Made by a program: the position numbers and the translations under genes. From Paenibacillus sonchi (GTDB lineage: Bacteria; Bacillota; Bacilli; Paenibacillales; Paenibacillaceae), in NCBI RefSeq assembly GCF_016772475.1, contig NZ_CP068595.1, positions 3,596,001 through 3,660,000 of the forward strand: DNA of 64,000 nucleotides, in the 5' to 3' direction. The notes under the pieces were generated by a model. That model ran no database searches. It was not told where the DNA came from and saw only the letters and a program-made list of their open reading frames with translations. Numbering within the stretch: position 1 is the stretch's first letter; the number at the start of each line of letters is the position of its first letter. This document shows positions 27,820 to 47,242 of the stretch, piece by piece.

Positions 27820-28521
27820 TTGCCAGGAATAATAAGCACGATAGCGCTGCTGATCAAAGAACTGACACTGCTGGTATCCTACGTAAGGAACAATGCTTTT
27901 CCCCAGCCGCTCTCCGAACAGGATGAAAGCAAATACTTAGGGAGGATGGCGGAGGGAGATGCTAAGGCTCGTAACTTGTTAATTGAACACAACTTGCGCT
28001 TAGTCGCCCACATAGTAAAAAAATTCGACAATACCGGCGAAGACATGGAGGACCTGATCTCCATCGGCACCATCGGGCTAATAAAAGCTATCGAGAGCTA
28101 CCGCCCGAACAAAGGGACGAAGCTCGCTACTTTTGCTGCCCGTTGTATCGAAAATGAAATCCTGATGCACCTGAGATCGCTGAAAAAGACGCGCAAGGAC
28201 GTATCCCTGCATGATCCGATAGGAACCGATAAGGAAGGTAATGAAATTACACTTATAGATATCCTTGGCTCCGAGGCCGACGATGTAATCAAGGAAGTCG
28301 ATCTGAAGATCGAGAAGAGCAAGATCTACCGCAATCTCGACATCCTGGATGACCGGGAGAAGGAGGTCGTGGTGGGCCGCTTCGGTCTGGATACGGGGGG
28401 CGAGGAGCGGACGCAGCGGGAGATTGCGAAGGAGCTGGGGATTTCGCGGAGCTACGTTTCAAGAATAGAGAAAAGGGCGCTCATGAAGCTGTATCATGAG
28501 TTTTATAAGGCGAAGCGGTGA
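27820..28521 (+). CDS. sigK: RNA polymerase sporulation sigma factor SigK (uninterrupted)
   Basis: This 233-residue sigma factor directs late mother-cell transcription during sporulation. It has a hydrophobic N-terminal pro-sequence (about 20 residues, normally cleaved by SpoIVFB), region 2 ([32 protein letters not shown]) and region 4 ([36 protein letters not shown]). The TTG start follows GGGAGGTG. The frame is intact, with no skin-type insertion. From codon 145 to the stop it is duplicated at 46972-47242, where only the 3' part exists. Confidence 0.95.
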
Positions 28522-28529
28522 GTTTTATA

Positions 28530-28563
28530 AAGCGACTTGTCTACGGATGAGTTGCTTTTATTA
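28530..28563 (+). terminator. Terminator after sigK
   Basis: AAGCGACTTGTC-TACG-GATGAGTTGCTT followed by TTATT. Nearly the same hairpin occurs at 48064-48100, beyond the second sigK 3' copy. Confidence 0.75.
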
Positions 28564-28615
28564 TAAATATGCTTTAACTAATCTCAGAATATACAACAAA
28601 GGGAGTTTCACTAAA

Positions 28616-28715
28616 ATGTGCTGCAAGGACATATATGATCTTCATGTTCAACTACTACATACGTAGGAGAAACATGAACAGCATCAAGGCCAACATCAAA
28701 AAGAAATTAATTATT
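28616..28715 (+). pseudogene. Short conserved peptide fragment, copy A (DLHVQLLHT element)
   Basis: After AAAGGGAG, ATG 28616 reads MCCKDIYDLHVQLLHT and meets a TAG at 28664; beyond it the same frame continues EKHEQHQGQHQ. The related copy at 38463-38556 is open through this point. Between 28625-28696 and 38479-38550 there are seven synonymous and four conservative or mild amino-acid changes, so the forward frame was under coding selection. The family is not recognised. Confidence 0.5.
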
Positions 28716-28860
28716 TCAAAAGACAGTTTTTTATGACAGAAGATTAGTTCAAAAGATTTTTGTTTTGAATCAGCTAGTGAAAATACATGAGCAGGAAAGA
28801 GCGATTGTAGTGAAGTGGTGTTCTGAGAAGTATTTCAATTGAATTTGGAATGATGAATGT

Positions 28861-28907
28861 TAAAAGCGGGTATCGTCCTAATTTAAGGATAATATCCGCT
28901 TTTAAAT
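28861..28907 (+). terminator. Hairpin, probable terminator
   Basis: TTAAAAGCGG and CCGCTTTTAA bracket a further partially paired stem. It is A/T-rich at both ends and separates the fragments of this decayed region. Confidence 0.6.
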
Positions 28908-28932
28908 AGTTATAAGGAAGTACTTCATAGAT

Positions 28933-29049
28933 TTATAGTAAGGTACCTACCTCCAATAATCTAGCACCCCCAGCAATACATACACCATCACAAATAATGT
29001 CCACACCGGTCAGATATCCCATTCGTTCATCTGCACCAAGCTGCATATA
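28933..29049 (-). pseudogene. C-terminal remnant of a short-chain dehydrogenase
   Basis: The minus strand reads YMQLGADERMGYLTGVDIIC and then DGVCIAGGA before a stop at 28933. This is the typical SDR C-terminal segment (YLTGxDIxxDGG), but nothing of the catalytic part is present upstream. It lies opposite to the intact SDR gene at 29251. Confidence 0.7.
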
Positions 29050-29154
29050 GAGCGGCAATTTTATTAGGGGGCTCCAGTTGATCGATTGTATTATTTTTAA
29101 TATGAATCATCGAATCTTCTTATTTGAACTCACGGATGATTTGTTATCGCGTTT

Positions 29155-29197
29155 GCCCAAAAGGGCAGAGGGTCTTGCCCCTATGTACGATGTTAAA
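29155..29197 (+). repeat. 43-bp element, copy A (upstream of SDR gene)
   Basis: It begins GCCCAAAAGGGCA and ends ACGATGTTAAA, and aligns without gaps to 35963-36005 with about three quarters identity. It lies 53 bases upstream of the SDR start. In copy B the sequence forms an 11-bp perfect stem; here the stem is degraded. In one frame both copies encode PKRA...DVK, so they may instead be tails of related regulator genes. Confidence 0.5.
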
Positions 29198-29250
29198 AGA
29201 CAGTACGTCCTGTATCATAAAGCTATAAACAACATGAGGAGGAAAAAGAT

Positions 29251-30012
29251 ATGCGTTTAGAAAATAAAGTAGCAGTTGTCACAGGTGCAGCTTCAGGAAT
29301 GGGTAAAGCGATCGCCGAGTTGTACGCTAAAGAGGGGGCTAAGGTAATTGTCTCCGATTTGAACTTAGCTGGAGCGGAAGAGGTTGCAGCTGGTATTAAT
29401 AGTATTGGAGGCGAAGCCGTTGCTGTTAAAACGAATGTTGCTCACGAAAGTGACATTAATGAGATGATTGATCTGGCGATTTTTACCTTTGGGGGGCTGG
29501 ACATTCTGGTCAACAATGCTGGAATAATGGATGATATGGCACCAGTTGGCGATGTACTGGATGGGAAGTGGGAGCTTATGTTTGATGTGAATACGAAAAG
29601 TGTAATGCGGGCCATTCGCAAAGCGATCCCTATATTCCTGGAACAAGGAAATGGCATTATTGTTAATGTAGCATCAACCGGCGGTTTTAGCGGAGCTCAT
29701 GCCGGTGTTGCTTACACAGCTTCCAAACACGCAGTGGTTGGTATTACAAAAAATACTGGTTTTATGTATGCACAGAAGGGGATTCGCTGCAATGCGATAG
29801 CGCCTGGAGCCACAATGACCAATATCGTCAATACAATATCAAATGTGAATGAATTAGGTGCAGCACGCACAAAGGTGATTAAAGGTGTAATTCCCCGTCT
29901 CGGACAGCCGGAGGAAATTGCTCAGGTTGCGTTATTCCTCGCATCAGATGAATCCAGCTTCGTCAACGGTGCTGTAATTACGGCAGACGCAGGCTGGACA
30001 GCAGGCTTTTAA
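29251..30012 (+). CDS. Short-chain dehydrogenase/reductase (FabG-like)
   Basis: This 253-residue classical SDR has TGAASGMG, NNAG, catalytic Ser in NVASTGG and YTASK; the tail ends FVNGAVITADAGWTAGF as in FabG-like enzymes. The Asp after the second strand (VSDLNLAG) favours NAD+. ATG 29251 follows GAGGAGG. Substrate is unknown. It is the first intact gene of the AT-richer segment between the two sigK 3' copies. Confidence 0.9.
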   Translation: MRLENKVAVVTGAASGMGKAIAELYAKEGAKVIVSDLNLAGAEEVAAGINSIGGEAVAVKTNVAHESDINEMIDLAIFTFGGLDILVNNAGIMDDMAPVGDVLDGKWELMFDVNTKSVMRAIRKAIPIFLEQGNGIIVNVASTGGFSGAHAGVAYTASKHAVVGITKNTGFMYAQKGIRCNAIAPGATMTNIVNTISNVNELGAARTKVIKGVIPRLGQPEEIAQVALFLASDESSFVNGAVITADAGWTAGF

Positions 30013-30037
30013 ATGAAGGATTTTTTGGAGTGCACGT

Positions 30038-31681
30038 ATGGGGAATATTCTATCCTATTTAAGATGGCGTGGCGATATTAGCCTCAAAGAACGCCCTTTT
30101 AACGAAGTTGACAACCTGGTATTGGCGGCGTTATCCTACCTTGATCTTGAGGGAATTGTTCCGGGTATAGGTCAAGGCAAGTGTATTACTGTGGAGGAAG
30201 CCTGCGATTCTTATTTTAAAAATCAAAAGGAGGTAGATATAGAGCGTTTGAAGCGCTTGTCCATTGTGGATAATGCTTTGCTCAAAGAAATGGCACAATC
30301 AGAACGCTTTAAACATGCAAAGCTCTCAAACTTTGTTGATATTATGGATGAAGCTAAACTTATGCAGTTTTCCGCACTACTTATAGAACTAGATGATGGT
30401 ACGTTTTATGTTGCTTACCGTGGAACAGATAATTCCATTTTGGGATGGCGAGAAGACTTTACTATTAGTTTTCAGACAGTATCTGCCCAGCTTTCGGCCT
30501 TGGCCTATCTTGAAACAGTCGTAGCCCCTAACCAGAAGATGTATCGTGTTGGGGGCCATTCTAAAGGCGGGAATCTTGCGATGTATGCCTCCATGATGTG
30601 CGCTGATTCTGTTAGAGAACGGATTCTGGAAATCTATAATAACGATGGTCCTGGATTTTGTAAGGATTTACCATGGGCTACGAATATTGAAAAGATTCAA
30701 GATAGAACCGTTCAAATTGTACCTGAGTTTAGTGTAATAGGTATGTTATTTACGGCAACCGAAACATCCTCAAACATTATTGGAAGCTGTGCAACAGGTC
30801 TAATGCAACATCACCCCATGACCTGGGAAGTCGAAGGCAGTGCATTTGTCCGAAAAAGTGACTTAATCAATCGCTGTAAATTAATAAATGAAATGATTGA
30901 TAACTGGATCGAAAATGTTGATTTTGAACAGAGAAAAACCTTTACGAGTGACTTATTTGATGCTTTAGGAGCGGGTGGAGCAAACTTAGTGACAGATCTG
31001 CCCAACGGCGGGGTTGACGGTTTTGAATCCATCTTATTTGCTTTAGGTAGTTCAGATGTTAAGACAAAGGCAGCCATATCGATATTTTTTAAATCTGTTA
31101 TTGCAGGGTGTCGAAAAATTGACATAGTCGCTCTTCTTAAATCCAAGACAATGATAAAAGGTGCCTGCGTTGCACTACTAGGATTGTTTTTTATGCAGAA
31201 TCCCGAATTTCCATTTAGAATTCTCGGTTCACTGTTCTTTTTTTCAATTTTTTCATTTTCTGTTTTCAAATATGTCCGTCATCTTAAAAAGGTTAAAAAT
31301 AATGTACCTGTTTGGAAACACACATCCAAGTTATACTTACTACTCTTGGGATTATCCTCAATTATTTTATTGAAGGGAAATACCTTTTCCGTATCTACAC
31401 ATATGCTGCTTAGCTTTGGATTTTTAGTAAATGCTTATCTGAACTTTAATCAATATCTGAAAACAACGAATATGAAAAGCAAAAAATGGGTGTTGCTACC
31501 GAACTCTGTTATTTCATTGTTGCTCGGAATCGTTTCGTGGGTGACTGCCAATCATATCGAGACTATATTCATTTACTTTATGGCAACTTATTTAATTCTC
31601 TCAGGAGTTGCTGAGATGATTGATTCGATGTATGAGAATGCCCAAAACAGGTTGCAAAAGGAGCATAGACTAAGGTCGTGA
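30038..31681 (+). CDS. Mbeg1-like (DUF2974) alpha/beta hydrolase with C-terminal membrane domain
   Basis: This 547-residue protein starts MGNILSYLRWRGDISLKERP, the hallmark of the Mbeg1/DUF2974 hydrolase family. The lipase-like nucleophile elbow is GHSKGG after VAYRGTDNSILGWREDF. The last 180 residues add about six hydrophobic helices (GACVALLGLFFM, LSSIILLKG and others), so the hydrolase is membrane-anchored, longer than the simple family members. Substrate is unknown; lipid or ester hydrolysis is inferred from the fold. Confidence 0.85.
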   Translation: MGNILSYLRWRGDISLKERPFNEVDNLVLAALSYLDLEGIVPGIGQGKCITVEEACDSYFKNQKEVDIERLKRLSIVDNALLKEMAQSERFKHAKLSNFVDIMDEAKLMQFSALLIELDDGTFYVAYRGTDNSILGWREDFTISFQTVSAQLSALAYLETVVAPNQKMYRVGGHSKGGNLAMYASMMCADSVRERILEIYNNDGPGFCKDLPWATNIEKIQDRTVQIVPEFSVIGMLFTATETSSNIIGSCATGLMQHHPMTWEVEGSAFVRKSDLINRCKLINEMIDNWIENVDFEQRKTFTSDLFDALGAGGANLVTDLPNGGVDGFESILFALGSSDVKTKAAISIFFKSVIAGCRKIDIVALLKSKTMIKGACVALLGLFFMQNPEFPFRILGSLFFFSIFSFSVFKYVRHLKKVKNNVPVWKHTSKLYLLLLGLSSIILLKGNTFSVSTHMLLSFGFLVNAYLNFNQYLKTTNMKSKKWVLLPNSVISLLLGIVSWVTANHIETIFIYFMATYLILSGVAEMIDSMYENAQNRLQKEHRLRS

Positions 31682-31725
31682 CAGAATTTAATTCTTCATG
31701 ACCTTTTTATTTGAGGAGGAAAGGT

Positions 31726-32049
31726 ATGTTTAATCCGCAATTCAATGGAAACGATAGAACAATAAATACTAACAACAAACTTCTAATTCTGAGTGTAATT
31801 TTCTTTGCAATACTTGCCTTGTATAATCCGGATAAAGGAGACTTTGTGGAGTATAAATTAAGCAACGTAGGTGAACATACTCTGATTAAAAGTGATTTTT
31901 TGTCAAACGTTACGAAGCTAATTGATGAACCTTTAATAGAATCAACAACGAAAAGAAAAAACCGGTTGTTCTTTTCTGTTTTTACAACCTCAGATCATAC
32001 AAAGTATCTTGGAATTGGCTTATTTAAAGTTATATTTATTAAAATGTAG
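31726..32049 (+). CDS. Small membrane-anchored protein (DUF4359-like)
   Basis: This 107-residue protein starts at ATG 31726 with GAGGAGG well placed. It has one N-terminal membrane helix (KLLILSVIFFAILALY), then NPDKGDFVEY, and later RLFFSVFTT and YLGIGLFK. This order (helix, NPxxxDY, FSVxTT, YLGI) resembles the DUF4359 proteins of bacilli. Function is unknown. The C-terminal tail is slightly abnormal and may be altered. Confidence 0.65.
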   Translation: MFNPQFNGNDRTINTNNKLLILSVIFFAILALYNPDKGDFVEYKLSNVGEHTLIKSDFLSNVTKLIDEPLIESTTKRKNRLFFSVFTTSDHTKYLGIGLFKVIFIKM

Positions 32050-32086
32050 GATATAGCTATGGTCCAGCTTGTTTAGGAGGCTTCAT

Positions 32087-32530
32087 ATGAAAAATGTACG
32101 GGTATTTACGGATAGTCTGACTACGTTTCCTATGGTTTGAGTGTTCTAATATCAGTTCTCATTATCATTTTTCTTTACTAGGCGGATCTTAAAAAGACTT
32201 CAAAAAGTATATATTTTTACAGAGCAACTAGGTAAAGGAGATTTATCTAATGAGCTGCATTTCAATGGGAATGATAATATAAGCAGAGCACTAAATAAAG
32301 TTCCAGTAATATAAAAATGCTTACCTATAGTGAAAGACAAGATAACAGGTACCTCTCAACAAACTTCAAAATATACGAGTGGAATTAACTCAAGTTTACC
32401 GAAGATAAACCTGGTAATGAATCGGACTACGGAATCTATGGAGAATCAGGCTAAACTAATGTATCAATTAATGAATTCCATGGAAGAATTTAAGTTAACA
32501 GAGGACCCGCATAAGGGGGAGTTATGTTGA
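32087..32530 (+). pseudogene. Broken HAMP/chemoreceptor-like signalling protein
   Basis: TAGGAGG precedes ATG 32087, but the frame stops after 17 codons. Fragments follow in shifted frames: a hydrophobic helix (SVLISVLIIIFLY), a HAMP-like piece (TEQLGKGDLSNELHF), then a helical signalling segment (KDKITGTSQQTSKYTSGINS, NRTTESMENQAKLMYQLMNS). At least two stops or shifts interrupt it. It overlaps the kinase start at 32524, so it was probably the first gene of that operon. Confidence 0.65.
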
Positions 32531-33720
32531 ACGAAAAAAACGGAATGCAAAGCATCAGTGAGCTGTTCGCCTCAAGGCTGCCGACTATAATATGGTTATC
32601 CATTGTGTATGCCGGAACAATAGTACTGCAATTTCTTAAAGATCCATTAATTCTCGAAAGTGCTGTATTTACAGGTTTATTTACACTTCATGTGTTGTTG
32701 CATTGGAACTCTTACAGAATCACACAAAAAACATTCTGGATATACTTTTCTATTCAAGCTGTTCTGGTCTATCTTTGTGCCATTTTAATGCGTGACGGTT
32801 ATCAGGCTGTTTTAGTTGGACTGCTGCCTATATTGATAGCCCAGAGCCTTGGTTATTCGTTTCGGGTGAAGCGGGTCATTTTTATTTCCTTTATTAGTAT
32901 TATTGTCTTTTTTGATTCAGCTTTGACTGTGGGAGATACGGATGAATTACTCGTGTTTCTTCCTATTTTTATCCTGATGCTTATTGTTGTTCTGGCTTAT
33001 GCAATATTATTCTTCAAGCAAGTACAGGAGCGGCTTAGAATTCAGAGTTTCCTTGAGGATCTAAGGGAAGCGCATGAAAAAGTAGAGGAATTAACACTTG
33101 CGAATGAACGCCAGCGTATGGCGCGGGACTTGCATGATACACTGGCGCAGGGAGTTGCCGGACTCATTATGCGGCTTGAGGCTGCAGATGCACATATGTC
33201 ACAAAATCATACAGAGCGGGCACATGAAATCATCGGTCAGTCGATGCAGCAGGCACGCCGGACGCTGGCTGAAGCCCGGAGAGCGATTGACAACTTACGT
33301 TTAAAATCGGCTCCGGAGATAGACTTCAAAGAGGCGGTAGCAGATGAAATCGAGCATTTTAATGAAGCTACCGGTATCATCGTTACAAAGGATTATCGTT
33401 TGAACAAAAGATTATCCAGGCTGCAGATGGAACACAGTTTACACATTATTAAAGAATGTCTTACTAATATTGCCCGTCATGCCAAGGCTGATAAAGTATG
33501 CGTATCGGTTTCTTCACATAACGACAAGTTAATCGTTGAAATTAGAGACAACGGCATTGGTTTTAAAACAGATGATATCGGCAAGGACGCCGGACACTAT
33601 GGATTATTGGGACTAAAAGAACGGGTAAGGCTGATTGGCGGAGAAGTTTATATGAACAGTACTTCCGAAGGCACCACTATTAAATTTGCAGCGCCCTTAA
33701 CTAAAGGAGAACGTATATGA
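32524..33720 (+). CDS. NarL-type sensor histidine kinase
   Basis: This 398-residue kinase has about six N-terminal membrane helices (residues 20-165), a short coiled coil, then HisKA_3 with phospho-acceptor His in MARDLHDTLAQGVAGL and a HATPase domain (ECLTNIARHAKA, IRDNGIGF, HYGLLGLKERV). There is no large extracellular domain, so it probably senses membrane state or a membrane-active compound, like the B. subtilis LiaS/LnrJ/YfiJ group. ATGA overlap with the response regulator. The MmpL exporter and ABC-2 transporter nearby are candidate targets. Confidence 0.92.
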   Translation: MLNEKNGMQSISELFASRLPTIIWLSIVYAGTIVLQFLKDPLILESAVFTGLFTLHVLLHWNSYRITQKTFWIYFSIQAVLVYLCAILMRDGYQAVLVGLLPILIAQSLGYSFRVKRVIFISFISIIVFFDSALTVGDTDELLVFLPIFILMLIVVLAYAILFFKQVQERLRIQSFLEDLREAHEKVEELTLANERQRMARDLHDTLAQGVAGLIMRLEAADAHMSQNHTERAHEIIGQSMQQARRTLAEARRAIDNLRLKSAPEIDFKEAVADEIEHFNEATGIIVTKDYRLNKRLSRLQMEHSLHIIKECLTNIARHAKADKVCVSVSSHNDKLIVEIRDNGIGFKTDDIGKDAGHYGLLGLKERVRLIGGEVYMNSTSEGTTIKFAAPLTKGERI

Positions 33721-34370
33721 CGGTGTATAAAATTGTAATTGTAGACGATCACTTTGTAGTACGTGAAGGCCTAAAGCTGATTCTCGAAACAAATGAGCAA
33801 TTCGAAGTCATTGGTGAGGCTGAAAACGGGTTAGAGGCGTTGCCTATAATTGCGGAATTGCAGCCGAATGTGATTCTTATGGACTTAAATATGCCAGTTA
33901 TGGGCGGCCTGGAAACCATGCAGGAATTAAAGAAGCAAGGATCTAAGATTCCAGTTATTATCCTCACGACCTATAACGAAGATGATCTAATGATAGGCGG
34001 GCTGGCTATAGGGGCAAAGGGATATTTATTAAAAGATACCAGCCGTGAGAATCTGTTCAGAAATATTGAATCAGCTGTTCGTGGGGAAACCTTGCTGTCG
34101 ACAGATATAATGGAACGCGTAATTGCAGCAAGGTCCCAGGAGAAAGGACGGGTCTACGCTTCTAATGAAGCCAACAGCTTGAGTGACAAAGAAACACATA
34201 TTCTGCAAGCTGTTGCCCGTGGGCTAAAAAGCAAAGTGATTGCCCTGGATATGGGCATTTCCGAACGTACCGTTAAAGCTCATTTAACAACGATTTATAA
34301 TAAACTTGGAGTGGAATCACGTTCTCAGGCGGTAGCTGTTGCATTGGAGCGGGGGATTTTGGATAATTAA
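33717..34370 (+). CDS. NarL/FixJ-family response regulator
   Basis: This 217-residue regulator has a receiver domain (VDDHFVVREG, phospho-acceptor in VILMDLNMP, ILTTYN, LLKD) and a LuxR-type helix-turn-helix (LSDKETHILQAVARGLKSKV, MGISERTVKAHLTTIYNKLG). It is the cognate partner of the kinase at 32524, translationally coupled. Targets probably lie among nearby export genes, but no operator was identified. Confidence 0.94.
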   Translation: MTVYKIVIVDDHFVVREGLKLILETNEQFEVIGEAENGLEALPIIAELQPNVILMDLNMPVMGGLETMQELKKQGSKIPVIILTTYNEDDLMIGGLAIGAKGYLLKDTSRENLFRNIESAVRGETLLSTDIMERVIAARSQEKGRVYASNEANSLSDKETHILQAVARGLKSKVIALDMGISERTVKAHLTTIYNKLGVESRSQAVAVALERGILDN

Positions 34371-34392
34371 TGATCGTGCTTATTAAGTAAAG

Positions 34393-34616
34393 TTAATGTT
34401 TTATAACCACCACCGCGCCTGTTACAAATATTATGGCACTAACGAACATCCTAGAAAAGCGCTACTCTCCATAGCATTCGCAGATTCTGTATAAACGAGC
34501 AAAATGAACTGAGTAAAAACGATGGGAACAAGAGCATCTGCAAAATAAATCAATTTTAAGCCCTAAGCTATAGGGTTTTTCCAGCGGCTAATTACAATAG
34601 TACCGTATATAGCAGC
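34393..34616 (-). pseudogene. C-terminal remnant of an EamA/DMT-type transporter
   Basis: The minus strand reads AAAIYGTIVISRWKNPIA, a stop, then GLKLIYFADALVPIVFTQFI and, in another frame, MFVSAIIFVTGAVVVIKH before a final stop at 34393. These are hydrophobic helices in the style of a DMT permease C-terminus. The fragment is cut at its N-terminal side by the adjacent insertion sequence. Confidence 0.5.
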
Positions 34617-34677
34617 AGCATAAGAACCCCCACTCATATTGGTCAAGCCCCTATTTTGTAGACACTGAAAAAAGACC

Positions 34678-35688
34678 CTAGGCTGTAAGCTGCTTCCGGT
34701 ACTCCACCGGAGGCAGCTTATTTAGTCTTCGTTGCGGTCGATACTGGTTGTAAAATTGAATATAGGCTTCAATTCGTCTTTGTGCCTCGTCCAGATTTCG
34801 GATATCATAAGGGTAGAGCCCTTCCGTTTTGAGATGCGAGAAGAAGCTCTCCATGGAGGCATTGTCATAACCATTTCCTCGGCGGGACATGCTGATTCGG
34901 GCGCCAACCTTTGGCAGCATGTCATGGTATGCATGAGACGTGTATTGGAATCCCTGGTCGCTGTGAACGATCAGTCCGGTCACGTCTTTTGTCTTGTTAA
35001 AGGCTTTCTCAAAGGTCTGTAGAACCAGTGGATTGTCATTTTTCTGACTCATGTGGTAGGCTACAATTTCATTGTTAAACAAATCTTTCACCGCAGAAAG
35101 ATAGAGCCACGATTCTCCCACCCGGTATTGAGTCACATCGGTAACCCATTTTTGGTTAGGAGCATCCGCCTTGAAATCTCGCTTCAGTAGGTTTTTAGCG
35201 ACTCGCCCTCCGTCCGAAGATGCGTAATTACAGCGATGTTTTCGCCTTATTCGTGACCGGATTCCAAGTACCTGCATGAGCCGTAGCACCTTCTTATGAT
35301 TCATCCAGACTCCGTGATCCTGCAGCAAGAATAACTGGATCTGTCGGTATCCGTAAACTCCGTTGTAGTGCTCGTAAACCTTCTTCACAAGTTCTCTATC
35401 TTCTCGGTCCCGATCGAATGCTTTGCGCTTTAGAAAGGCGTAATATCCGCTTCTGGAGACCCCAAACACTTTGCACAAATGACGAACCGGATATTCACTT
35501 GAGGCTCTCTCAATCGTTACATACCGCTCTGTTTCATCTCCTGCATCCAGATTTCCAAGCACTTTTTTAGCATTTCGTTCTCCTGTTTGAGCCATTTGAC
35601 CTGTCTTTCTTGATCGACATATTGTTCTCGCCGTCCTCGCTGGTCCACAAGTCCGAACTCTCCCAATTCCCGGTATTTCCTCATCCAT
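34678..35688 (-). CDS. IS3-family transposase OrfB (DDE integrase domain)
   Basis: The catalytic triad is visible: Asp in KWVTDVTQYRVGES, Asp in LIVHSDQGFQYTS, and Glu in NASMESFFSHLKTEG, followed by YNQYRPQRRLNKLPPVEYRK. An HTH_21-like segment (YNGVYGYRQIQLFL) precedes the rve domain. The true product begins near TERYVTIERASSEYPV as an OrfAB fusion made through the A6G slippery site at 35562-35568; the extra N-terminal codons up to 35688 are orfA read in the other frame. Confidence 0.9.
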   Translation of the reverse strand: MDEEIPGIGRVRTCGPARTARTICRSRKTGQMAQTGERNAKKVLGNLDAGDETERYVTIERASSEYPVRHLCKVFGVSRSGYYAFLKRKAFDRDREDRELVKKVYEHYNGVYGYRQIQLFLLQDHGVWMNHKKVLRLMQVLGIRSRIRRKHRCNYASSDGGRVAKNLLKRDFKADAPNQKWVTDVTQYRVGESWLYLSAVKDLFNNEIVAYHMSQKNDNPLVLQTFEKAFNKTKDVTGLIVHSDQGFQYTSHAYHDMLPKVGARISMSRRGNGYDNASMESFFSHLKTEGLYPYDIRNLDEAQRRIEAYIQFYNQYRPQRRLNKLPPVEYRKQLTA

Positions 35689-35830: not shown

Positions 35831-35928
35831 AAAAAATGCACCCCCTAGAATTCATCGGATAAACCAGGGGTTTATTCCAATGTCTATTCTAAGGGGTGCA
35901 CTTCATATAGAGTGGGGGTTCTTATGCT

Positions 35929-38754: not shown

Positions 38755-38772
38755 AGGTGTTGCTTTCCCTGT

Positions 38773-39489
38773 TTATGGCTGCTCCGCATATCTCCACCAG
38801 GCAAAAGTTCCGGCTATTCCGATTATCCCCGTATACGCAAGAATGACTATACTGCTCAGCTGTAGAGAACCGGTGCTTTGAAATACCGACGGGATGGTCC
38901 AGGGGAAATAGGGGGCAAATCCAAAAGAGGCCAACACGTTGGAGAGAATGACGATGATCAGGATGAGCCCCAGGGGTGCCAGGTAGCCCTTGGTCACATT
39001 AGCCAAAAGAATGCTTGGTGCGGTCACAAAAATGTACAACAGCGAGGTGATCAGGAACTTAATGAATAAGCTCCAAATGAAAGCGGCGGACCCGCCTTCA
39101 ACGCCCAGGATTGCTCCTACGGCAAAACCTACGGCAAACATATAGATGGAAAGTAACAGGCACCATGCTAAAATGACAAGGAATTTGGACAATACAATTT
39201 TCGCTCTGGACACGGGTTTTGCCAGCAAATCTTTAATGGTTCTATCCGAAAACTCCCGTCCGAATACCCATGCCGCAACAAAGGTGTATCCGATCAGTCC
39301 CAGCGGGGCAAGCGTATCCAGCAATCCGGTTAAATACGCTTCCCACTGTACACCGCCGGCGTCACTGGATAATACATTTCCGACGCCCATCATGACGGGC
39401 CCGAAGCCTAAAACCAAAAACATGATCCAGAACACATTGGAGCGGATAATCTTGCGAATCTCACAATGTAACACAGATAGAATATTCAT
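38773..39489 (-). CDS. ABC-2 type transporter permease
   Basis: This 238-residue protein has six hydrophobic helices in the ABC2_membrane_5/BcrB style: an N-terminal CEIRKIIRSNVFWIMFLVLG, FGREFSDRTIKDLLAKPVSR as the cytoplasmic coupling loop, and a last helix with ILAYTGIIGIAGTFAWW. It is the membrane partner of the ATPase at 39486, with a four-base start/stop overlap. Export of a peptide antibiotic or resistance to one (bacitracin-type) is the usual role. Confidence 0.88.
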   Translation of the reverse strand: MNILSVLHCEIRKIIRSNVFWIMFLVLGFGPVMMGVGNVLSSDAGGVQWEAYLTGLLDTLAPLGLIGYTFVAAWVFGREFSDRTIKDLLAKPVSRAKIVLSKFLVILAWCLLLSIYMFAVGFAVGAILGVEGGSAAFIWSLFIKFLITSLLYIFVTAPSILLANVTKGYLAPLGLILIIVILSNVLASFGFAPYFPWTIPSVFQSTGSLQLSSIVILAYTGIIGIAGTFAWWRYAEQP

Positions 39490-40439
39490 CTTTTATTCCC
39501 CCTGTTGACTCCGATGGTGCGGAGAAAGTATCCTTCCAGATCCTCCGTAATTACCCGGAGCGACGTTGGCGGCTGATTGCTTTGAACGAGCAGTTCGGCC
39601 AGCCGTTCAGGATGATCTGCCGCATGTTCATTGGTTAGTTTAATAGAGCCGTCCGGGGTATCCTCAAAGGCATAGCCATGCTCTTCCAGCACCTTCTTTA
39701 AGGCAGGTTTGTTCCGGCCGTTCACGACCAGGCTTTTCTCTAAGGACTGCTCCAGCTTATCCATTGCGACTTCTTTAACCAGCTGGCCGCTGTGAATAAT
39801 TCCAATCCGTGTAGACACCTTCGAGAGCTCCTCTAACAGATGGCTGGATATAAAAACCGTAATGCCGAAATTGTTCGCCAGATTATATAACATATTCCGT
39901 ATCTCCGCCACGCCTGCGGGATCAAGGCCATTGATGGGCTCGTCCAAGATTAGAATTTCCGGATCGTGAATCATCGCCTTCGCAAGTCCCAGGCGCTGCT
40001 TGTTTCCCAAAGAGAGATGTTTTGCTTTTTTCTTTTTGTGCGGCTCAAGCCCCAGCTTATAGATCACCTGATGTACGGCATCTTTGTCCGGCAACCCTTG
40101 CATGCGTCTTGCGATGTCAAGATTCTCCGTTACAGTCAGATCAGGATAAAAAGTAGCCTCCTCCAAATATCCGACCTTGCTCCATAATTTATAATTTCCG
40201 GCATCGACCTTTTCACCTAACATATAGAGCTTACCGGAGGTTGGCCTCAGCATAGCCAGAAGCATCTTGATGGTCGTTGTCTTCCCGGCGCCATTCAGTC
40301 CCAGGAATCCAAAGATCTCTCCTCGGTTCACCTCCAGCGAAAGATTATTTAATACGGTATAGTCGCCAAACCTTTTATGCACTCCGTCAATTTGTATAGC
40401 AGGCGTGCTGCCTATTTTTTTCTTTGATAAAATTCGCAT
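39486..40439 (-). CDS. ABC-2 type transporter ATPase (BcrA-like)
   Basis: This 317-residue ATPase has Walker A GLNGAGKTT, signature LSLGNKQRLG, Walker B ILILDEPINGLDP, switch His in FISSHLLEELSK, then a C-terminal extension typical of DrrA/BcrA exporters. The ATG at 40439 is used; a longer frame upstream lacks a start signal. It energises the permease at 38773. Confidence 0.9.
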   Translation of the reverse strand: MRILSKKKIGSTPAIQIDGVHKRFGDYTVLNNLSLEVNRGEIFGFLGLNGAGKTTTIKMLLAMLRPTSGKLYMLGEKVDAGNYKLWSKVGYLEEATFYPDLTVTENLDIARRMQGLPDKDAVHQVIYKLGLEPHKKKKAKHLSLGNKQRLGLAKAMIHDPEILILDEPINGLDPAGVAEIRNMLYNLANNFGITVFISSHLLEELSKVSTRIGIIHSGQLVKEVAMDKLEQSLEKSLVVNGRNKPALKKVLEEHGYAFEDTPDGSIKLTNEHAADHPERLAELLVQSNQPPTSLRVITEDLEGYFLRTIGVNRGNKR

Positions 40440-40555
40440 AACCTTTAACTCCTCCATAAAGAGAGAGCTTATACAGGAATCTAAGGACAACATTCCTGAA
40501 CAAGCTCCATCGAAAATGTTTCAATAAATCTACTGCTTGATGATGTTATGACAAT

Positions 40556-41715
40556 CTAAGATTGGCGGGGCGCAGCTGGCCCAAGCCCAATGGAGCAGAG
40601 CCAATTCAGTGCTACCTCATGCAGCACGTTGATGTTATCTACCTGACAGTGTTCTAATCCGCCAAGCCGTCTATCCTCTATCGCATAGAATGTCTTGTTA
40701 GGCGAACCGGCCTGCTCGTAATTCTTCAAGGCTTGTGTTAGCGGATTGGGCTGAACCAATATCTCTTCCGCTCCATGCATGACAAGCAGCGGACATTGAA
40801 TCTGGTGAAGTACGCCCTCAAGATCATAGGCAAAACGCGGATTCCCGCAAAATCCTCCAGGCTTTCTGCCCCGAGAATTCTCATGCCGTGTGCGGCCAGA
40901 CTTGGCGGCATCCATGAAAGCATGGCTTTCCAGTCGAAGGCATGCGTACCGCCGTCGGAGATGACGGCAGCAATCCGGTGATCGAACGAAGCGAACCGCA
41001 GGGAGTCGTAAGCCGCAAAGCTCTCCCCGTGCACGATAATCTTATCCGGATCGACTTCCGGCCGGGTTAGAAGGAAGTCGATGGCCCGGGAATGAAAGGC
41101 CTCGCTGTCCGCCCGTCTCCCCTTCCCCTTTTCGTACATCGAGAGGCCGGTGCCGGGCTGGTCATAGACCAAAAAGTTATATCCACACGAAATGAAGGCA
41201 GGACCCAGCCAGAAATAGTTTTCAATGGACCACTCGTCACCACCGTTAAGTGCAAATACGGTCGGCTTTGGACCTTCTATCCAGGAAGGGGAGAAGAAGT
41301 ATCCATCCAGCTTGACATCCTCGTAATCGACCTCAATCTTCTCCGGACGGACCTCGAAGTATGTTCCGGCAGCCTCGAAAAGTTCATTCACCTTTTTAAA
41401 GATACGGATTTTCTCATTGTCATCATCCATCACTGCATACTCTGCGATTCTGTAGTAATTGCAGGCACGAATGTAGCAGTTCCGTGCGGTATACCAGTTT
41501 CCGGCCGTTTCTGCCTCCTTGCCGTGTCTTTCCAGTGCCTGAGCGGTGATGAGCCATTCCCTGTGCCACGTAGCCTTGTCATCGGGGTCGATTTTTTTGC
41601 AGGCCTCATAGATTTCAGTGACGTCTGTAGCACCAAGGCTTGCCATACCCAAAGCTTTGGTAACCTGGTATGACATCATGTAGTTATTAGGCCAGCGGCT
41701 GAACTCAATTGACAT
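40556..41715 (-). pseudogene. Alpha/beta hydrolase (dipeptidyl-peptidase/FrsA-like), interrupted by a -1 frameshift
   Basis: ATG 41715 follows AAGGAGG and opens an N-terminal helical domain (GNWYTARNCYIRACNYYRIA), then a hydrolase core with nucleophile elbow HGESFAAYDSLRFA. The frame departs after SLEDFAG near 40846, and the rest (NPRFAYDLEGVLHQIQCPLL, VMHGAEEILV with the acid region) lies in the other frame down to 40556. Adding one G to the GGG complementary to 40844-40846 joins them in a normal protein of about 386 residues. Inactive if the shift is real. Substrate is unknown. Confidence 0.8.
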
Positions 41716-41851
41716 TTCGACTTCCTCCTTCTTAAGTTCCAGTGATTGTAGTTTTCTGCTACAACTTATTTTTACATCCAAAGATGAAGCTTCTTTAAAA
41801 GAAAAATAAATAGATCTAAAGAGAATATAAAAAACTATAAACTGCCAAGCA

Positions 41852-41891
41852 GAAACGGCTTCGCCGTCCTTTAAAAGGACGGTATCGTTTC
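41852..41891. repeat. Palindromic cruciform-like sequence
   Basis: CCGTCCTTTAAAAGGACGG (41864-41882) is a perfect palindrome, flanked by GAAACG and CGTTTC. It sits in the 314-bp gap between the hydrolase and the kinase remnant; no gene is seen there. Confidence 0.5.
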
Positions 41892-41952
41892 AGCGAGAAA
41901 TATAAGGATGATTTGTGGCGTGAAACATATAAATCCTTATATTTTAAAAAAC

Positions 41953-41992
41953 AAAAAAAGGCTGTTACCTGGGTCCACACCCGGGAACAGCC
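41953..41992 (-). terminator. Terminator after the kinase remnant
   Basis: On the minus strand GGCTGTTCCCGGGT-GTGG-ACCCAGGTAACAGCC is followed by a run of seven T. Confidence 0.8.
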
Positions 41993-42030
41993 TGTAGCTT
42001 TGTTGTTGGAGAAGGAGTGCAAAAATAAAA

Positions 42031-42894
42031 TCAGCGTTGTACCGCCAGGGGAAGGCTGAATCTGATCCCCAAACCGCCATATTCGGAGGAGTAGGCAACA
42101 ATTTCGCCCCCGTGATGTTCAATAATAGAATATCTTACAGCATTGCTAAAGAGATTGCCGAACACCCGGCGGATCATCGGTTCATTGACCGTTAGCCCTA
42201 TACTGTCCGTGAAAGAATGGCGGCAAGTCAGTTCGATGTCAAGTCCCGCCAGCTCGTATTCATATTCAAAAGCAATGTCTTCAAATAATTCTGTTGCTTT
42301 TACAGGTTTAGCTATCATGGATTCGAGCTCCAGTTTTTCTTTGGTGAAGCTTGAGAAATCATTGAGGAGTTCAACCATATATGCTGACTTCCTTTGAATC
42401 AATTCATAATATTCCTGCTTTTCAGTTTCGGGTAAATCCTTGTGTGTAGCCAGCAGTTCAGTAAAACCGTTAATAGAGGTCAGGGGTGTTTTCAAATCGT
42501 GGGCGATGGCTGCAATCATATCGGTTTGTTCTCTGTGGGCGAGTTGAAGCCTATGCTCCATCTTATTGAAGTGCTTATAAAGTTCTCCGATCTCGTCCTT
42601 ACGCTTCAAAGCCAGCGGAGGCAGGGGATGGACCACATTTACTTCCCCCAGCCGGGTATTCAGACGCCGAATGGGCTTCTCTATGCGAAAATGAATATAG
42701 ATGATCAGAATAAAAAATATGCAACCAGCAATGGCGAATATGGGCAGCAGCAAGGCTATATATCGTGAGTCCAGCAAGGTGGTACGTATAGGAGAGTATA
42801 CTGCAAAGACAAACTTTAAATACAAACCAATAGAAAACATAAGAATTAGCAGCATCAGCAGGAATAATAGGGGAAGCTTTATTTTCAGTTTCAT
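42031..42894 (-). pseudogene. Sensor histidine kinase lacking most of its ATP-binding site
   Basis: This 287-residue frame has two membrane helices, a HAMP segment (FRIEKPIRRLNTRLGEVN), the dimerisation/phosphotransfer helix (IAAIAHDLKTPLTSINGFTE) and the N-box (MIRRVFGNLFSNAVRYS). It then jumps straight to IIEHHGGEIVAYSSEYGG. The D-x-G-x-G, F and G2 boxes, about 70 residues, are absent, so ATP cannot be bound. The reading frame stays open, so the deletion is in frame. It lies just downstream of its broken response regulator. Confidence 0.8.
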
Positions 42895-42895
42895 C

Positions 42896-43322
42896 CTATT
42901 GCTCTCTTTCTGTGTATTTATAGCCTATGCCCCAAATGGTTTTAATAAAGTTATGTTCAGGGCCCAGTTTCTTGCGGATATTTTTGATATGAACGTCGAG
43001 CTTCCGGCTGTACAGGAAGGCTTCAAACGTTTTATCATTCAAAATGAGCGGAGCATCAGCCTTTTCTTTAGTGGGACTAAGTTCGCCCCACTCTTTATGC
43101 AGCCTGTCCACTTTCCGGAAATGAGCCTTTATCCTGGAGGCCAGCTCCTGAATACTGAAAGGTTTGGTCATATAATCATCTGCGCCGATTTCAAGACCGA
43201 CAATTTTATCAATATCCTGATCCCGTGCACTTAATAACAGAATGGGAACATTATACGAGGACCGGATTGATGAGTTTCACGATTTCTTCATCATCGTCTA
43301 CTACTAATATCGTTTTTGGCAT
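42896..43322 (-). pseudogene. OmpR-family response regulator with two internal deletions
   Basis: ATG 43322 (GGGAGG upstream) begins PKTILVVDDDEEIVKLI, then the frame stops. In another frame the receiver resumes at SYNVPILLLSARDQDIDKIV and GLEIGADDYMTKPFS, so the middle of the receiver including the phospho-acceptor Asp is missing. The DNA-binding domain joins EAFLYSRKL to DVHIKNIRKKLG, lacking about 50 residues of the winged helix. The gene is 427 bp, against about 690 for the family. Confidence 0.85.
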
Positions 43323-43439
43323 TTGACTACCTCCCAGAAGCAAACGGACGTGATATAAATCATAATTCCTTAATCTGGTTGATGCAAACTTTCGCAGATC
43401 TCTTGATTGGACGGATTGGGTATGGCGATTTCACAGTTA

Positions 43440-43466
43440 AAGGCCATCCTTTTCGGGATGGCCCTT
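43440..43466. terminator. Bidirectional hairpin terminator
   Basis: AAGGCCATCC-TTTTC-GGGATGGCCCTTT serves the amidase gene on the minus strand; a short T tract follows on both strands. Confidence 0.7.
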
Positions 43467-43491
43467 TCTGTAATCTTTGAATGGAGCTTCA

Positions 43492-46400
43492 TTAGTTCAA
43501 GTTTTCCGATAATCTGGATACCATTGTGGCGAACTCTGCTCTGGTAATATCTTGTCCAGGCTTAAATGTACTGTCTGCGTATCCGGTAATAATTTTATTG
43601 GAGGCGAGTGCATCAATGGAATCATAATACCATGCATTTCTTTGTACATCCTTGAATGAGGTGTTTCCGGTACCCGTCAGCTTGAAGGCTCTGGTGATTA
43701 GTGTTGCTAATTCACTACGGCTAATCTTATCGTTCGGACGGAAGGTTCCATCGCTATATCCGTTCATCAAGCCTGATCCGGCAGCTGCACCAATATACTT
43801 ATTCGCCCAATGCGTTGAAGATACATCAGTAAAGTTGCTAGCTTGTCCTTCAAGTCCCATGTACGTTGCAATGACCTTAATCGCTTCGGCACGGGTCAAA
43901 CCTGAATCCGGACGGAAGGTTCCGTCGGCATAACCCGTTAGTAATCCCTTAGCAATAAGCAGGTCAATGCTTGCTTTCGCCCAATGATTCAGTGTATCTG
44001 CAAAACTGACAACTTCCGGCTTAGGTGTTGGTGTTGTTGTTTCTGCAGGTGCTGTAGGAGCCGGTGTTGGTGTAGGCGTTGTTGTTGCTGGAGGAGTCAC
44101 TGGACCTTCTCCAGTACCTAGATTTGGATTAGTTGTTCCATTATCTGTTGGATCAGGATTAGTAGGGCTTGGAACGTATTGAAGTGCTGGAGCAAAGGCT
44201 GTAAGCAGTCTGGCTTGACTTTGTTGCTCAAGAGCATAGCCCATACCTAAAACTTTTGCATCGTCCCATGCTCTGCCCACAAGCTGCATAGAGATCGAAT
44301 ATCCGCTGTCGTTCGTTCCTACAGGAACCACTACTGTAGGGAGACCGACATTAGACGTTAATACGCCTGTGTTGCGGTCAGAGCTTAATTGAGAAGCTGC
44401 TGCGTCATTGTTATATACGTCACTAATGAAACCTGCATAAACGACAGCATCCACGCCATTCTCGTCCATCCACCCTTTAATCACTTCCTTATAGTCGCTT
44501 CTATACTTGATGTAATCCTGTACCGCCTGTTCAGTCATCCGCGCAGGCTGAGTATATCCTCTTTGATTATAGATAAGCACCTTATCTGAAGCCAGCACAC
44601 TTGCTCCATCCAGGTAAGGGAAGTTCTTATGAAGCTCGATATAGCGCGCCCAGCCTTCAGTAGATCCATTAATGCCTGAAGGACGGCTGGGAGCTGAAGG
44701 TATTGCTGACATTTCAACCATTGTTGCACCCGCTGCCTGAAGCTCAGAGAACTTATCCTTTACCGCTTGTCCAGTATCATCATCAGCATAGCTAGATACA
44801 AAGGATGAGGGGATATATCCGATTTTCTTTCCTTTCAATGCATTGGCATCCAGAGCTTCCTTCCAGTTCACCGGACGCTTATGATCTGCATCAGCAGTCA
44901 CGGTGAAAATATCCTGTGGGTCTGTACCCGTTGTAGCATTCAACATAATGGCCAGGTCAGTTACTGTTTTGGCAATGGGACCTGCATAATCCTGTCCCCA
45001 AGTGAGCGGCAGTACACCTGTAGTACTGGCCATACCGTCTGTACCACGGAAGCTTTTTAAGCTGGCGCCTGTCGTAGGTGCATAGAGAGATACCCCTGTT
45101 TGTGATCCCATGGCTGCTGCTGCAAAATCGGCTGCAACAGATACCGCCGATCCGCCGCTTGAGCCAAAAGATGTTTTGGATGGATACAGCGCATTCCATG
45201 TTTGCATCCAGCCGCTTTCACTAAAGCTTCCGCTATTTGCAAACTCAGAAGTATTTACTTTACCAATAATGACAGCGCCAGCTTCCCGCAGCTTATTCAC
45301 CTGGAAGGCATCGGATTCAGGCCGCCAGCCTTCAAGCGCTTTGCTGCCGCCTGTAGTGGGCATATCCTTTGTGTCATAAATATCTTTTATGGCAATCGGA
45401 ATCCCCAGCAGATCACCTTTTGCGCCTTGTGCACGGGCATTGTCAGCAGCTTTGGCTTGGGCTAGCGCAGTTTCGGATACGTGCAGGAAGGCATGGAATC
45501 CGAGTTGCCCCTCATCGTACGCCTTGATTCTATCCAAATACGCTTGAGTAATTTGTACAGAAGTCGTTTTTCCATTGATCATATCCTGCTGCATCTCTGC
45601 AATTGATTTATTCACAACATCATAGGGGGATGAAGTGACGAATGTTTTGGCTGCTGGGGCATCTGGAATAACCAGGTTATCTCCGGTATCCAGCCCCTCT
45701 ATAGCAGAGATATCCCAGTTACTGATGGACCTGATTTGTGCATGGGTTAATCCAGATACATCTAGCTGCTGATTAAGTCCATTAAGCGTGGTAACCAGAT
45801 TGTTCAGCCCTGCTTCGCCAGCTTCTCCAACTTGTACAAAATGCACCAGGGATTTGGACTGACCCGGCTCAATATTTAAGGTATTAATGAAGCCATAGAA
45901 ATTCGCCTCATTTCCGGACTTAGCCAGGGGTGTCGTGAATGGATTCTGCTGCTGATTCCCCAGAGCAGTTAATCCATTATGAAACGGATATGGAGATCCA
46001 ACTGCAATACCTAGGGGGTTATTGTTTTTGGCACTGCTATCGACAACAATCCATGAATCGTCTGTCGTCACCTCCAGATCATTGGAGTAGGTTGCCTTGA
46101 CTACAGAAGCATTTGCCGCTGTTCCATATCCTAAAGAGCCGCCGAAAGACACATCAATCTTTACAGCCATATCATTCTTATTAGTAAAAGTATCAAAGAA
46201 TCTCGTTCTATTATTAATAGTATCTACATACACATCACGGGTGACTGTGACATTTCCCAGATTTACAGATTGAGTTGAAGTGAATCTATTAACGCCATCG
46301 TATTTCAGGTCGAACCCGCGCATCATCTGTCCATTCATCAGTGAAGCTGAAGGAGATGACACTTTAACAAAGATATTACCGAAGCCTTGCACTTGTGTAG

Positions 46401-46602
46401 TACCCACTGTACGTAAACTTCCTGTGTCTAAGCTGGGAGCAAAAGCATCGTGAATCTCCCATACTGTGCCACTTTGTGAAGTCACCCGGGTTAAAGCATC
46501 AGCGGTTTGAAACGGAATCACTGCCGAAGCCATAACTGATAGCGCAATGGAAGTAGCCATAACTTGCCTTTTAGTCTTACGCAGACGTTTTAACTTATTC
46601 AT
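43492..46602 (-). CDS. Secreted amidase-signature enzyme with three C-terminal SLH domains
   Basis: This 1036-residue protein starts at ATG 46602 after AAAGGAG, with a signal peptide (VMATSIALSVMASAVIPF, cut after ADA). An N-terminal beta-rich domain of about 300 residues is followed by an amidase-signature domain: catalytic Lys in GIPIAIKDIYDTKDMPTTGG and the Ser pair in SFGSSGGSAVSVA. A Pro/Thr linker and three SLH motifs (FADTLNHWAKASIDLLIAKG, GYADGTFRPDSGLTRAEAI and repeats) anchor it to the wall. The usual GxQTxGS segment is altered to MGSQTGVSLYAPTTGAS. Likely substrate is an extracellular amide or peptide. Confidence 0.92.
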   Translation of the reverse strand: MNKLKRLRKTKRQVMATSIALSVMASAVIPFQTADALTRVTSQSGTVWEIHDAFAPSLDTGSLRTVGTTQVQGFGNIFVKVSSPSASLMNGQMMRGFDLKYDGVNRFTSTQSVNLGNVTVTRDVYVDTINNRTRFFDTFTNKNDMAVKIDVSFGGSLGYGTAANASVVKATYSNDLEVTTDDSWIVVDSSAKNNNPLGIAVGSPYPFHNGLTALGNQQQNPFTTPLAKSGNEANFYGFINTLNIEPGQSKSLVHFVQVGEAGEAGLNNLVTTLNGLNQQLDVSGLTHAQIRSISNWDISAIEGLDTGDNLVIPDAPAAKTFVTSSPYDVVNKSIAEMQQDMINGKTTSVQITQAYLDRIKAYDEGQLGFHAFLHVSETALAQAKAADNARAQGAKGDLLGIPIAIKDIYDTKDMPTTGGSKALEGWRPESDAFQVNKLREAGAVIIGKVNTSEFANSGSFSESGWMQTWNALYPSKTSFGSSGGSAVSVAADFAAAAMGSQTGVSLYAPTTGASLKSFRGTDGMASTTGVLPLTWGQDYAGPIAKTVTDLAIMLNATTGTDPQDIFTVTADADHKRPVNWKEALDANALKGKKIGYIPSSFVSSYADDDTGQAVKDKFSELQAAGATMVEMSAIPSAPSRPSGINGSTEGWARYIELHKNFPYLDGASVLASDKVLIYNQRGYTQPARMTEQAVQDYIKYRSDYKEVIKGWMDENGVDAVVYAGFISDVYNNDAAASQLSSDRNTGVLTSNVGLPTVVVPVGTNDSGYSISMQLVGRAWDDAKVLGMGYALEQQSQARLLTAFAPALQYVPSPTNPDPTDNGTTNPNLGTGEGPVTPPATTTPTPTPAPTAPAETTTPTPKPEVVSFADTLNHWAKASIDLLIAKGLLTGYADGTFRPDSGLTRAEAIKVIATYMGLEGQASNFTDVSSTHWANKYIGAAAGSGLMNGYSDGTFRPNDKISRSELATLITRAFKLTGTGNTSFKDVQRNAWYYDSIDALASNKIITGYADSTFKPGQDITRAEFATMVSRLSENLN

Positions 46603-46971
46603 TTGGCAATCTCCTTTTCCTATGTATATTATTAATAATGTTAGGTAATATAACATTGTATATTAATTCAGTCAATGAATAATATGAAATTGAACTATTT
46701 TTAGAGTTTTCAACAAAGAGAAAATACTATAATTATTATAATGTGTAATATAAATGGCAATTTTAAGGCGTGATATATAACGCTTTATGTTATATATTGT
46801 TCTAGATGCTTTTGGATATACTTGGTAAAGGTTAGTACTATGGATACATAAACAACAGTTAAGGGGACTCATAAAGCTGAAGGAGAATTTATTCTTGAAA
46901 CAGATAGAAGTGGAATAAAATAGTATTTAAATGAATTACCTGAATGGGGCAAAATTGAAATGAGGATCAAG
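46603..46971. other. AT-rich gap upstream of the amidase
   Basis: No gene is supported. The stretch is very A/T-rich and must hold the amidase promoter on the minus strand. It ends exactly where homology to sigK begins. Confidence 0.5.
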
Positions 46972-47242
46972 TTATAGATATCCTTGGCTCGGAGGCCGAC
47001 GATGTGATCAAGGAAGTCGATCTGAAGATCGAGAAGAGCAAGATCTACCGCAATCTCGACATCCTGGATGACCGGGAGAAGGAGGTCGTAGTCGGCCGCT
47101 TTGGCCTGGATACGGGGGGCGAGGAGCGGACGCAGCGGGAGATTGCGAAGGAGCTGGGGATTTCGCGGAGCTATGTTTCACGGATAGAGAAAAGGGCGCT
47201 GATGAAGCTGTATCATGAGTTTTATAAGGCGAAGCGGTGAGT
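46972..47242 (+). repeat. Partial second copy of sigK (3' 271 bp)
   Basis: This matches 28253-28523 without gaps, 261 of 271 positions, from codon 145 (TTATAGATATCC) through the stop codon. All ten differences are synonymous. The region encodes sigma region 4 only ([20 protein letters not shown] to FYKAKR) and has no start signal, so it is not a working gene. It is a direct repeat, 18,719 bp from the first copy. Confidence 0.93.

Follow-up and report, generated by a model that had tools for sequence, protein, structure and literature searches.

A truncated second copy of the sigK 3' end in Paenibacillus sonchi as a probable decayed remnant of repeated insertions at codon 67

Introduction

Staphylococcal cassette chromosome (SCC) elements insert at the 3' end of rlmH and form composite arrays at this one gene, with defence genes among their cargo. 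Some integrative islands replace the 3' end of their target gene, the old end being displaced downstream, and mobile integrons receive serial additions behind one anchor, an arrangement that recurs in the sigK arrays described below. As in the elements considered here, a recombinase of the large serine recombinase (LSR) type lies inside a sporulation gene in the skin elements of Bacillus and Clostridioides and in the gin element of gerE. According to PMC5595907, sigK-intervening elements occur across strains, and the gin element carries three genes for serine recombinases but lacks phage-related ones.

In the present study we analysed a stretch of 64,000 nucleotides from Paenibacillus sonchi (contig NZ_CP068595.1, positions 3,596,001 to 3,660,000), hereafter called the window, in which an intact sigK gene is followed at a distance by a second copy of its 3' end. 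With a probability of roughly three in four, we consider this second copy to be a decayed remnant of repeated insertions of LSR elements at codon 67 of sigK. The elements found in related genomes, which are denoted here by G numbers, differ from the systems mentioned above. Compared with skin, the target at codon 67 differs from the break near codon 116 in the skin-type genome G034, four of the elements hold an intact sigK, and displaced 3' ends form arrays. The best NCBIfam matches of the recombinase are the SCC proteins CcrB and CcrC; however, the scores (114 and 106 bits) are far below the cut-off of 900 bits, and the target is codon 67 of sigK, inside a sporulation sigma gene, rather than the 3' end of rlmH. 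An assignment to SCC was therefore rejected, and the carriage of a whole replacement gene is a further difference. Compared with islands that replace a 3' end, about 70% of a sporulation gene would be exchanged, and the four fuller elements add a promoter and a full gene. The differences from mobile integrons lie in the LSR-type ends and the sigma-factor gene that serves as anchor; no integron integrase was placed at an array. In the titles and opening lines of abstracts listed from the open-licence PMC literature on skin, SPbeta, gin, recombinase trios and related subjects, there is no description of sigK arrays in Paenibacillus.

Results

The initial annotation of the window had proposed that sigK is intact and that its 3' end recurs downstream, and both statements were confirmed. 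The gene at 27820-28521 was identified as SigK by the NCBIfam equivalog TIGR02846 (371 bits against a cut-off of 298.65). Alignment of 28253-28523 with 46972-47242 gave 271 bp in the same orientation without gaps and with 10 mismatches (96.3% identity), in agreement with a repeat search, and because of this length and identity a chance origin of the repeat is excluded. The second copy extends from within codon 145 to 2 nt beyond the stop codon. No further sigK copy was found in this genome, the remaining matches of a genome search being other sigma factors with at most 49% identity. The second copy is closest to the strain's own sigK (96.2%), followed by that of G028 (95.5%). The features of the window to which we refer are the following.

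27820..28521, plus strand: intact sigK, 233 aa, TTG start
27995..28040, plus strand: presumed attB, by homology to attL and attR of relatives; its extent is the analyst's choice
28018-28019, plus strand: presumed crossover AA at bases 1 and 2 of codon 67, again by homology to attL and attR of relatives
28560..38478, no strand: youngest cargo layer (Y), with SDR enzyme, Mbeg1-like protein, histidine kinase and response regulator, transposase ORF and MMPL transporter
34678..35688, minus strand: transposase ORF (HTH_21 and rve), labelled IS3-like, the sole mobility gene seen between the repeats
38479..38556, plus strand: relic of post-sigK DNA, 82% identical to 28625-28702
38648..46971, no strand: cargo block common to relatives, with ABC transporter, FrsA-like esterase, broken two-component pair and amidase with SLH domains
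46972..47242, plus strand: truncated displaced sigK 3' copy, codon 145 to stop; the site holds 8.5 kb of other DNA in G031
48062..48096, plus strand: relic of the hairpin-like stretch after sigK, 88.6% identical to 28525-28559; terminator by eye

As the initial annotation had noted, the DNA between the copies is low in G+C (37-48% in 2-kb bins, compared with 50-60% in all but one of the 13 bins covering 1-26 kb). However, the G+C content remains at 42-48% from 48 kb through the window end, and the 18.4 kb is therefore not delimited by it. The 14 ORFs between the copies that were scanned with Pfam include an SDR enzyme, an Mbeg1-like protein, a two-component pair, a transposase and an MMPL transporter, as well as an ABC transporter, an FrsA-like esterase, a broken kinase with a regulator, and an amidase with SLH domains. 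The scan for integrase remnants that had been suggested for the 18.4 kb revealed no integrase among these 14 ORFs. The absence of a recombinase between the repeats, claimed previously, holds for the window, and the whole genome is without a match to the LSR of G011 at E≤1e-60.

Comparison with relatives spoke against the earlier supposition that the intervening DNA is a single 18.4-kb element. The cargo block matches G031 from 38754 onwards (89-97% by segment) and G015 from 38648 to 43387 (91-96%); in G031 the part at 38754-46971 is found soon after sigK without 28560-38478, and the same is true in G015 for 38648-43387. Apart from the first 150-300 bases after sigK, layer Y is unmatched in the compared stretches of G015, G031 and G028. 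A 43-nt direct repeat (29155-29197 and 35963-36005, 79% identical) flanks 6.8 kb reaching from the SDR gene to the transposase ORF. The bases at 38479-38552 are 96% identical to the DNA just after sigK in G015, and the relic to which they belong is read here as the putative mark of a lost sigK 3' fragment. The site equivalent to 48062-48096 is immediately preceded, in both G015 and G031, by a relic of sigK codons 77-119.

In G031 the cargo block continues into 8.5 kb that is unmatched in window positions 22001-56000. DNA that is common to G015 and G028 follows the block in G031. In the window this position is taken by the truncated copy at 46972, and no sigK fragment was found in G031 at the place of this copy. 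Because the G031 block runs into other DNA that is free of a fragment where the window has its copy, a deletion would be required, and the history of the window would need several layers and at least one deletion. The sigK gene of the window is 97.5% identical to that of G015 in the 5' coding part and 88.0% in the 3' coding part. A skin element was rejected for the window, where sigK is intact; the skin type is seen separately, in G034. The sequence AATGA, which occurs near the skin core site, is likewise found beside the window junction; the next 8 nt differ and the left side is G031 cargo block, and we attribute it to chance. In the fetched data, the only match of the 60 bp at 47243-47302 at E≤1e-3 was to the genome from which they come.

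Extra pieces of the sigK 3' end are frequent in the genus. Among the matches listed for 60 related genomes, an intact sigK with extra 3' pieces in the same orientation was seen in many congeners, and many of these pieces begin at residue 60-67. At E≤1e-20, 64 of 100 genus genomes have more than two sigK matches and 36 have two; the genome of the window is among the 64, in which split genes and perhaps further sigma factors are counted too, and the pairs are presumably sigK and SigE. In most of the 3' pieces shown from the fetched stretches, the first bases are ACATCGYATCGTGTCCAYAACCTC, fused to AAAAAATTCGA or a close variant, and a few pieces are truncated. This 24-nt end motif was found, with at most 2 mismatches, in 49 of the 100 genus genomes (reversed-pattern control: 0). 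A scan of species-level contigs (84,980 species by the database description) gave 38 stretches with the motif, 37 of them from Paenibacillus. These stretches contain 41 copies of the motif: 34 adjoin codon 67 of sigK, 3 adjoin sigK 5' sequence, and the remaining 4 adjoin neither, or do so only in a degraded state. The lone Staphylococcus match was rejected as a sigK element, as sigK does not follow the motif there. A prophage was likewise rejected: a pattern scan found the exact motif in 0 viral contigs, no phage structural or lysis genes were detected among the scanned element proteins, and no phage genes of any kind among the 14 window ORFs (Pfam).

We infer the attP site to be P-AA-P', with inverted arms around a central AA, an arrangement that LSR sites are expected to have. 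In the fetched arrays the motif is usually fused to sigK at codon 67, the displaced 3' copies lie behind the intact sigK, and the order is regular (sigK 3', cargo, P). The fetched stretches contain 57 right and 7 left junctions at codon 67 with a P arm, two of the 57 being weak (G027 at 29086, G094 at 19932). The search for right ends demanded part of the motif, and agreement was counted in the 13 remaining columns: in 11 of them 44-55 of the 57 ends have the same base, and in the other two 38 and 28 ends do. Left ends, in which sigK codons 1-66 are joined to the inverted motif, are rarer than right ends and were found in G003 (on a separate contig), G011, G022, G108 and G122, with a variant in G012 and G107. 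By eye, a Paenibacillus marchantiophytorum record (L100) has another left end, with sigK 5' sequence and the inverted motif.

The P end is absent from the window (best match with 8 mismatches in 25), and therefore the codon-67 junction is not directly visible there. Entry at codon 145, as originally proposed, was rejected, the recurrent junction being at codon 67 and the window copy looking truncated. The more general proposal of an insertion with replacement of the 3' end was upheld: sigK was invaded, the piece downstream is most readily understood as a displaced sigK 3' end, and other genomes of the genus have this pattern with its junction at a constant place.

Fuller elements were found in G003, G011, G108 and G122. 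Each has an LSR gene 370-930 bp upstream of the intact sigK with a small ORF (61-98 aa) between them, a tyrosine-recombinase trio further upstream (Pfam for the G011 trio only), and a left end, that of G003 being on another contig. Among the fetched stretches, the trio was detected at more than 30% identity only in these four genomes; it was not found in those of G012, G107, G080 and G066, in which LSRs lie beside their own ends and of which the G080 stretch covered only 3.3 kb before the LSR. On the right side, G108 has a P end after the intact sigK and then no sigK, the right P arm of G011 has a degenerate outer half, and the nearest P end in G003 lies 35 kb beyond sigK. The cargo gave PADLOC model matches to GajA and GajB (G011), LmuA and LmuB (G003, second contig), PD-Lambda-4_A (G108; a G122 protein is 98% identical) and PDC-S37 (G122), each of them a gene-level match. 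Two full-length sigK genes lie 26 kb apart in G095 (C1:1641146-1641847 and 1667029-1667727; L195, L196), with one right end and a truncated fragment behind the second. By eye, the cargo left of the intact sigK in G022 (assembled stretch 28574-34430; L144, L052) resembles a peptide-biosynthesis cluster.

With the G011 LSR as query, matches at E≤1e-60 were obtained in 9 of the 100 genus genomes, including the skin-type G034, and 42 of the 49 motif genomes have none. The G011 protein has resolvase, recombinase and zinc-ribbon domains (Pfam, G011 only). By similarity, LSRs are located near an att site or an intact sigK in G003, G011, G108, G122, G012, G107, G080 and G066; outside G003, G011, G012, G108 and G122, the fetched array stretches with an intact sigK contain no LSR match above 30%. 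The LSRs of G012 and G107 are found at the same target; their identity with the G011 LSR is 43% and about 49%, respectively, and each has its own P variant. The variant of G012 is alike at both ends, which share GGAGTTTGTTCACAAC, and the arms of G107 are alike only in part, by eye. In G107 and G080, sigK is broken at codon 66/67, its 3' half adjoins the LSR, and a full-length sigK was not matched, a skin-like state. The break near codon 116 in G034, also accompanied by an LSR, is of the skin type. A homologue of the small ORF, a candidate directionality factor, adjoins the sigK 5' half there (C1:1658057-1706697; L192, L193). In G080, a palindromic attP-like sequence was seen (C36 near 4715; L191), with no LSR match in the 10 kb fetched. 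In G066 (C9 near 127265-128894; L188), a related LSR ends beside the same P type at a site outside sigK, and the LSR family may thus use targets beyond sigK.

Related genomes are alike in the 5' part of sigK and diverge from about codon 67. In 22 pairs, the ratio of close to distant divergence is 0.02-0.19 for codons 1-66, 0.28 for 67-77, 0.40-0.44 for 78-99, 0.47-0.65 for 100-209 and 0.34-0.53 beyond 209; the pairs are not independent of each other, and this profile leaves out native fragments, G099/G096 (opposite pattern) and six window-clade pairs. The step is weaker in all 29 pairs, to which G009/G083 was added by hand (0.33 at codons 45-55, 0.41 at 67-77); this pair had not entered the list of pairs, presumably because its upstream DNA aligned over too short a length. 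Pairs off the pattern are G015/G031 (5' 90.9%, 3' 96.0%), G028/window (93.4% in both parts), G099/G096 (5' 83.3%, 3' 89.4%) and G093/G110 (3' 95.8%). For a control, 20 stretches were fetched and 18 used, G010 and G066 being dropped for carrying the motif. In these 18 motif-free genomes (4 close pairs) the ratio is 0.06-0.11 for codons 67-132, 0.37 for 45-66 and 0.22-0.47 from 133 on. Because codons 45-66 and those from 133 onward are not flat, this support for the codon-67 step is suggestive only.

G009, G083 and the native fragment of G011 do not differ at any of the 198 nt of 5' coding sequence. Of the gene families located 5' of this native fragment, four are also found ahead of the intact sigK in G009 and three in G083. 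In their 3' parts, G009 and G083 share 89.6% identity, with the first mismatch past nt 198 at nt 212. In several pairs, even rather distant ones, the region of sigK from -130 to +132 is better conserved than the rest.

Discussion

The observations to be accounted for are the junctions, the end variants paired with their LSRs, the intact sigK inside the elements, and the change in divergence near codon 67. In relatives, the order within fully or almost fully preserved elements is attL (sigK codons 1-66 and P'), defence cargo with the tyrosine-recombinase trio, the LSR gene, the small ORF, an intact sigK together with its promoter, and attR (P, then as a rule the old sigK codons 67-233). The host sigK is broken by the element, which brings an intact replacement. 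Because of the intact sigK that it carries, excision should not be needed for sporulation, unlike in the case of the skin element. The activity of the recombinase and the function of the carried sigK are predicted from sequence.

As the carried sigK would itself be an attB, elements could nest. Most motif genomes have an intact sigK, cargo, at least one attR or 3' fragment, and no LSR. In a nested element, the outer attL might recombine with the inner attR, which would leave the native 5' end, the element 3' end, the right-hand cargo and an orphan attR. Such a ratchet via mispaired attL and attR could yield the features of 3'-only arrays with ordinary LSR reactions. Taken together, these steps would describe a break-and-rescue element, in which an LSR element with anti-phage cargo destroys sigK and carries a whole sigK as antidote beside its integrase. 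The antidote would also be the target, permitting nesting, and the ratchet, running one way only, would swap the last 70% of sigK and stack recombinase-less cargo, resulting in a genus-wide gene-capture platform. We advance this full scheme tentatively, at somewhat less than even odds.

The window is most likely a decayed member of this family, with a copy cut at codon 145, two smaller relics and a block shared with relatives; neither an LSR nor a P end was present in it according to Pfam, motif and LSR searches. As no P end survives there, its link to the family is by homology, synteny and mosaicism only. Further points that weigh against our reading are the deletion that the comparison with G031 requires, the irregular right ends of G003, G011 and G108, the pairs off the divergence pattern, the weaker step in all 29 pairs, the uneven control, and the 42 motif genomes with no LSR match at E≤1e-60.

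Several other explanations were weighed. The same LSR elements might give rise to 3'-only arrays by homologous recombination between the native 5' fragment and the promoter and 5' part of the element's sigK, with loss of attL and the LSR. No unusual LSR step would be required, the overlap between the native fragment and the carried sigK amounts to about 330 bp (-130 to codon 66), with 92.5% identity in G012, and scattered crossovers could explain the rise in divergence from about nt 134-143 in the window clade and G063/G087. In this case, the switch points should lie upstream of codon 67, yet the aggregate divergence rises near that codon; G009, G083 and the G011 native fragment are free of mismatches at nt 0-198, the first mismatch between G009 and G083 being at nt 212, and the shared stretch is less than 80% identical in G108 and G122. 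We regard this route to the arrays as rather unlikely. The Campbell-type integration and homologous excision envisaged by the initial annotation did not stand up: the relatives have recombinase-type attL and attR and a constant junction, and the window copy is fragmentary. For the window by itself, an unlikely alternative is that illegitimate recombination duplicated a patch of this strain's sigK at the 3' end, with no relation to codon-67 elements. The closeness of the fragment to its own sigK (96.2%; G028 95.5%), the lack of a P end and the 8.5 kb at this place in G031 would agree with it, as would the often lower similarity of first fragments elsewhere to the intact 3' end, for example 86.8% in G001. 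Nevertheless, some displaced fragments elsewhere are similarly close (G018 96.4%, G027 95.4%, G083 93.6%), and the window has two more post-sigK relics and a sigK that is mosaic with respect to G015.

An integron-like process, in which circles of P and sigK 3' with cargo enter an intact sigK through an LSR acting in trans (attB x attR) and each donate a new 3' end, would account for the regular order of sigK 3', cargo and P, for the lack of LSR matches above 30% in array stretches with intact sigK outside G003, G011, G012, G108 and G122, and for the divergence switch near codon 67. However, LSRs recombine attP with attB and are not known to recombine attB with attR, no free circles were seen, and the elements of the relatives have ordinary attL and attR ends, which makes this process quite improbable. 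Insertion by the tyrosine-recombinase trio instead of the LSR is highly improbable. The trio is present in all four elements with LSR and sigK, and elements with a recombinase in trio have terminal inverted repeats, as which the end motif would then have to be interpreted; against this, the trio was not found in the fetched stretches of G012, G107, G080 (3.3 kb before the LSR) and G066.

Repeated LSR insertion at codon 67 with later decay remains our preferred reading of the window. Elements that insert into the coding region of a gene required late in sporulation have left their end sequence in roughly half of the species genomes sampled from the genus, and most motif-bearing genomes still have a full-length sigK. 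Here a mobile element seems to compensate for the broken target with a spare copy of its own. Several LSRs with one common target and different attP arms should be useful for testing LSR site recognition. The findings suggest that sigK 3' ends have been exchanged between lineages, and because of this apparent exchange a sigK tree is not usable as a species tree. Lastly, these elements link a sporulation locus to the turnover of defence genes.
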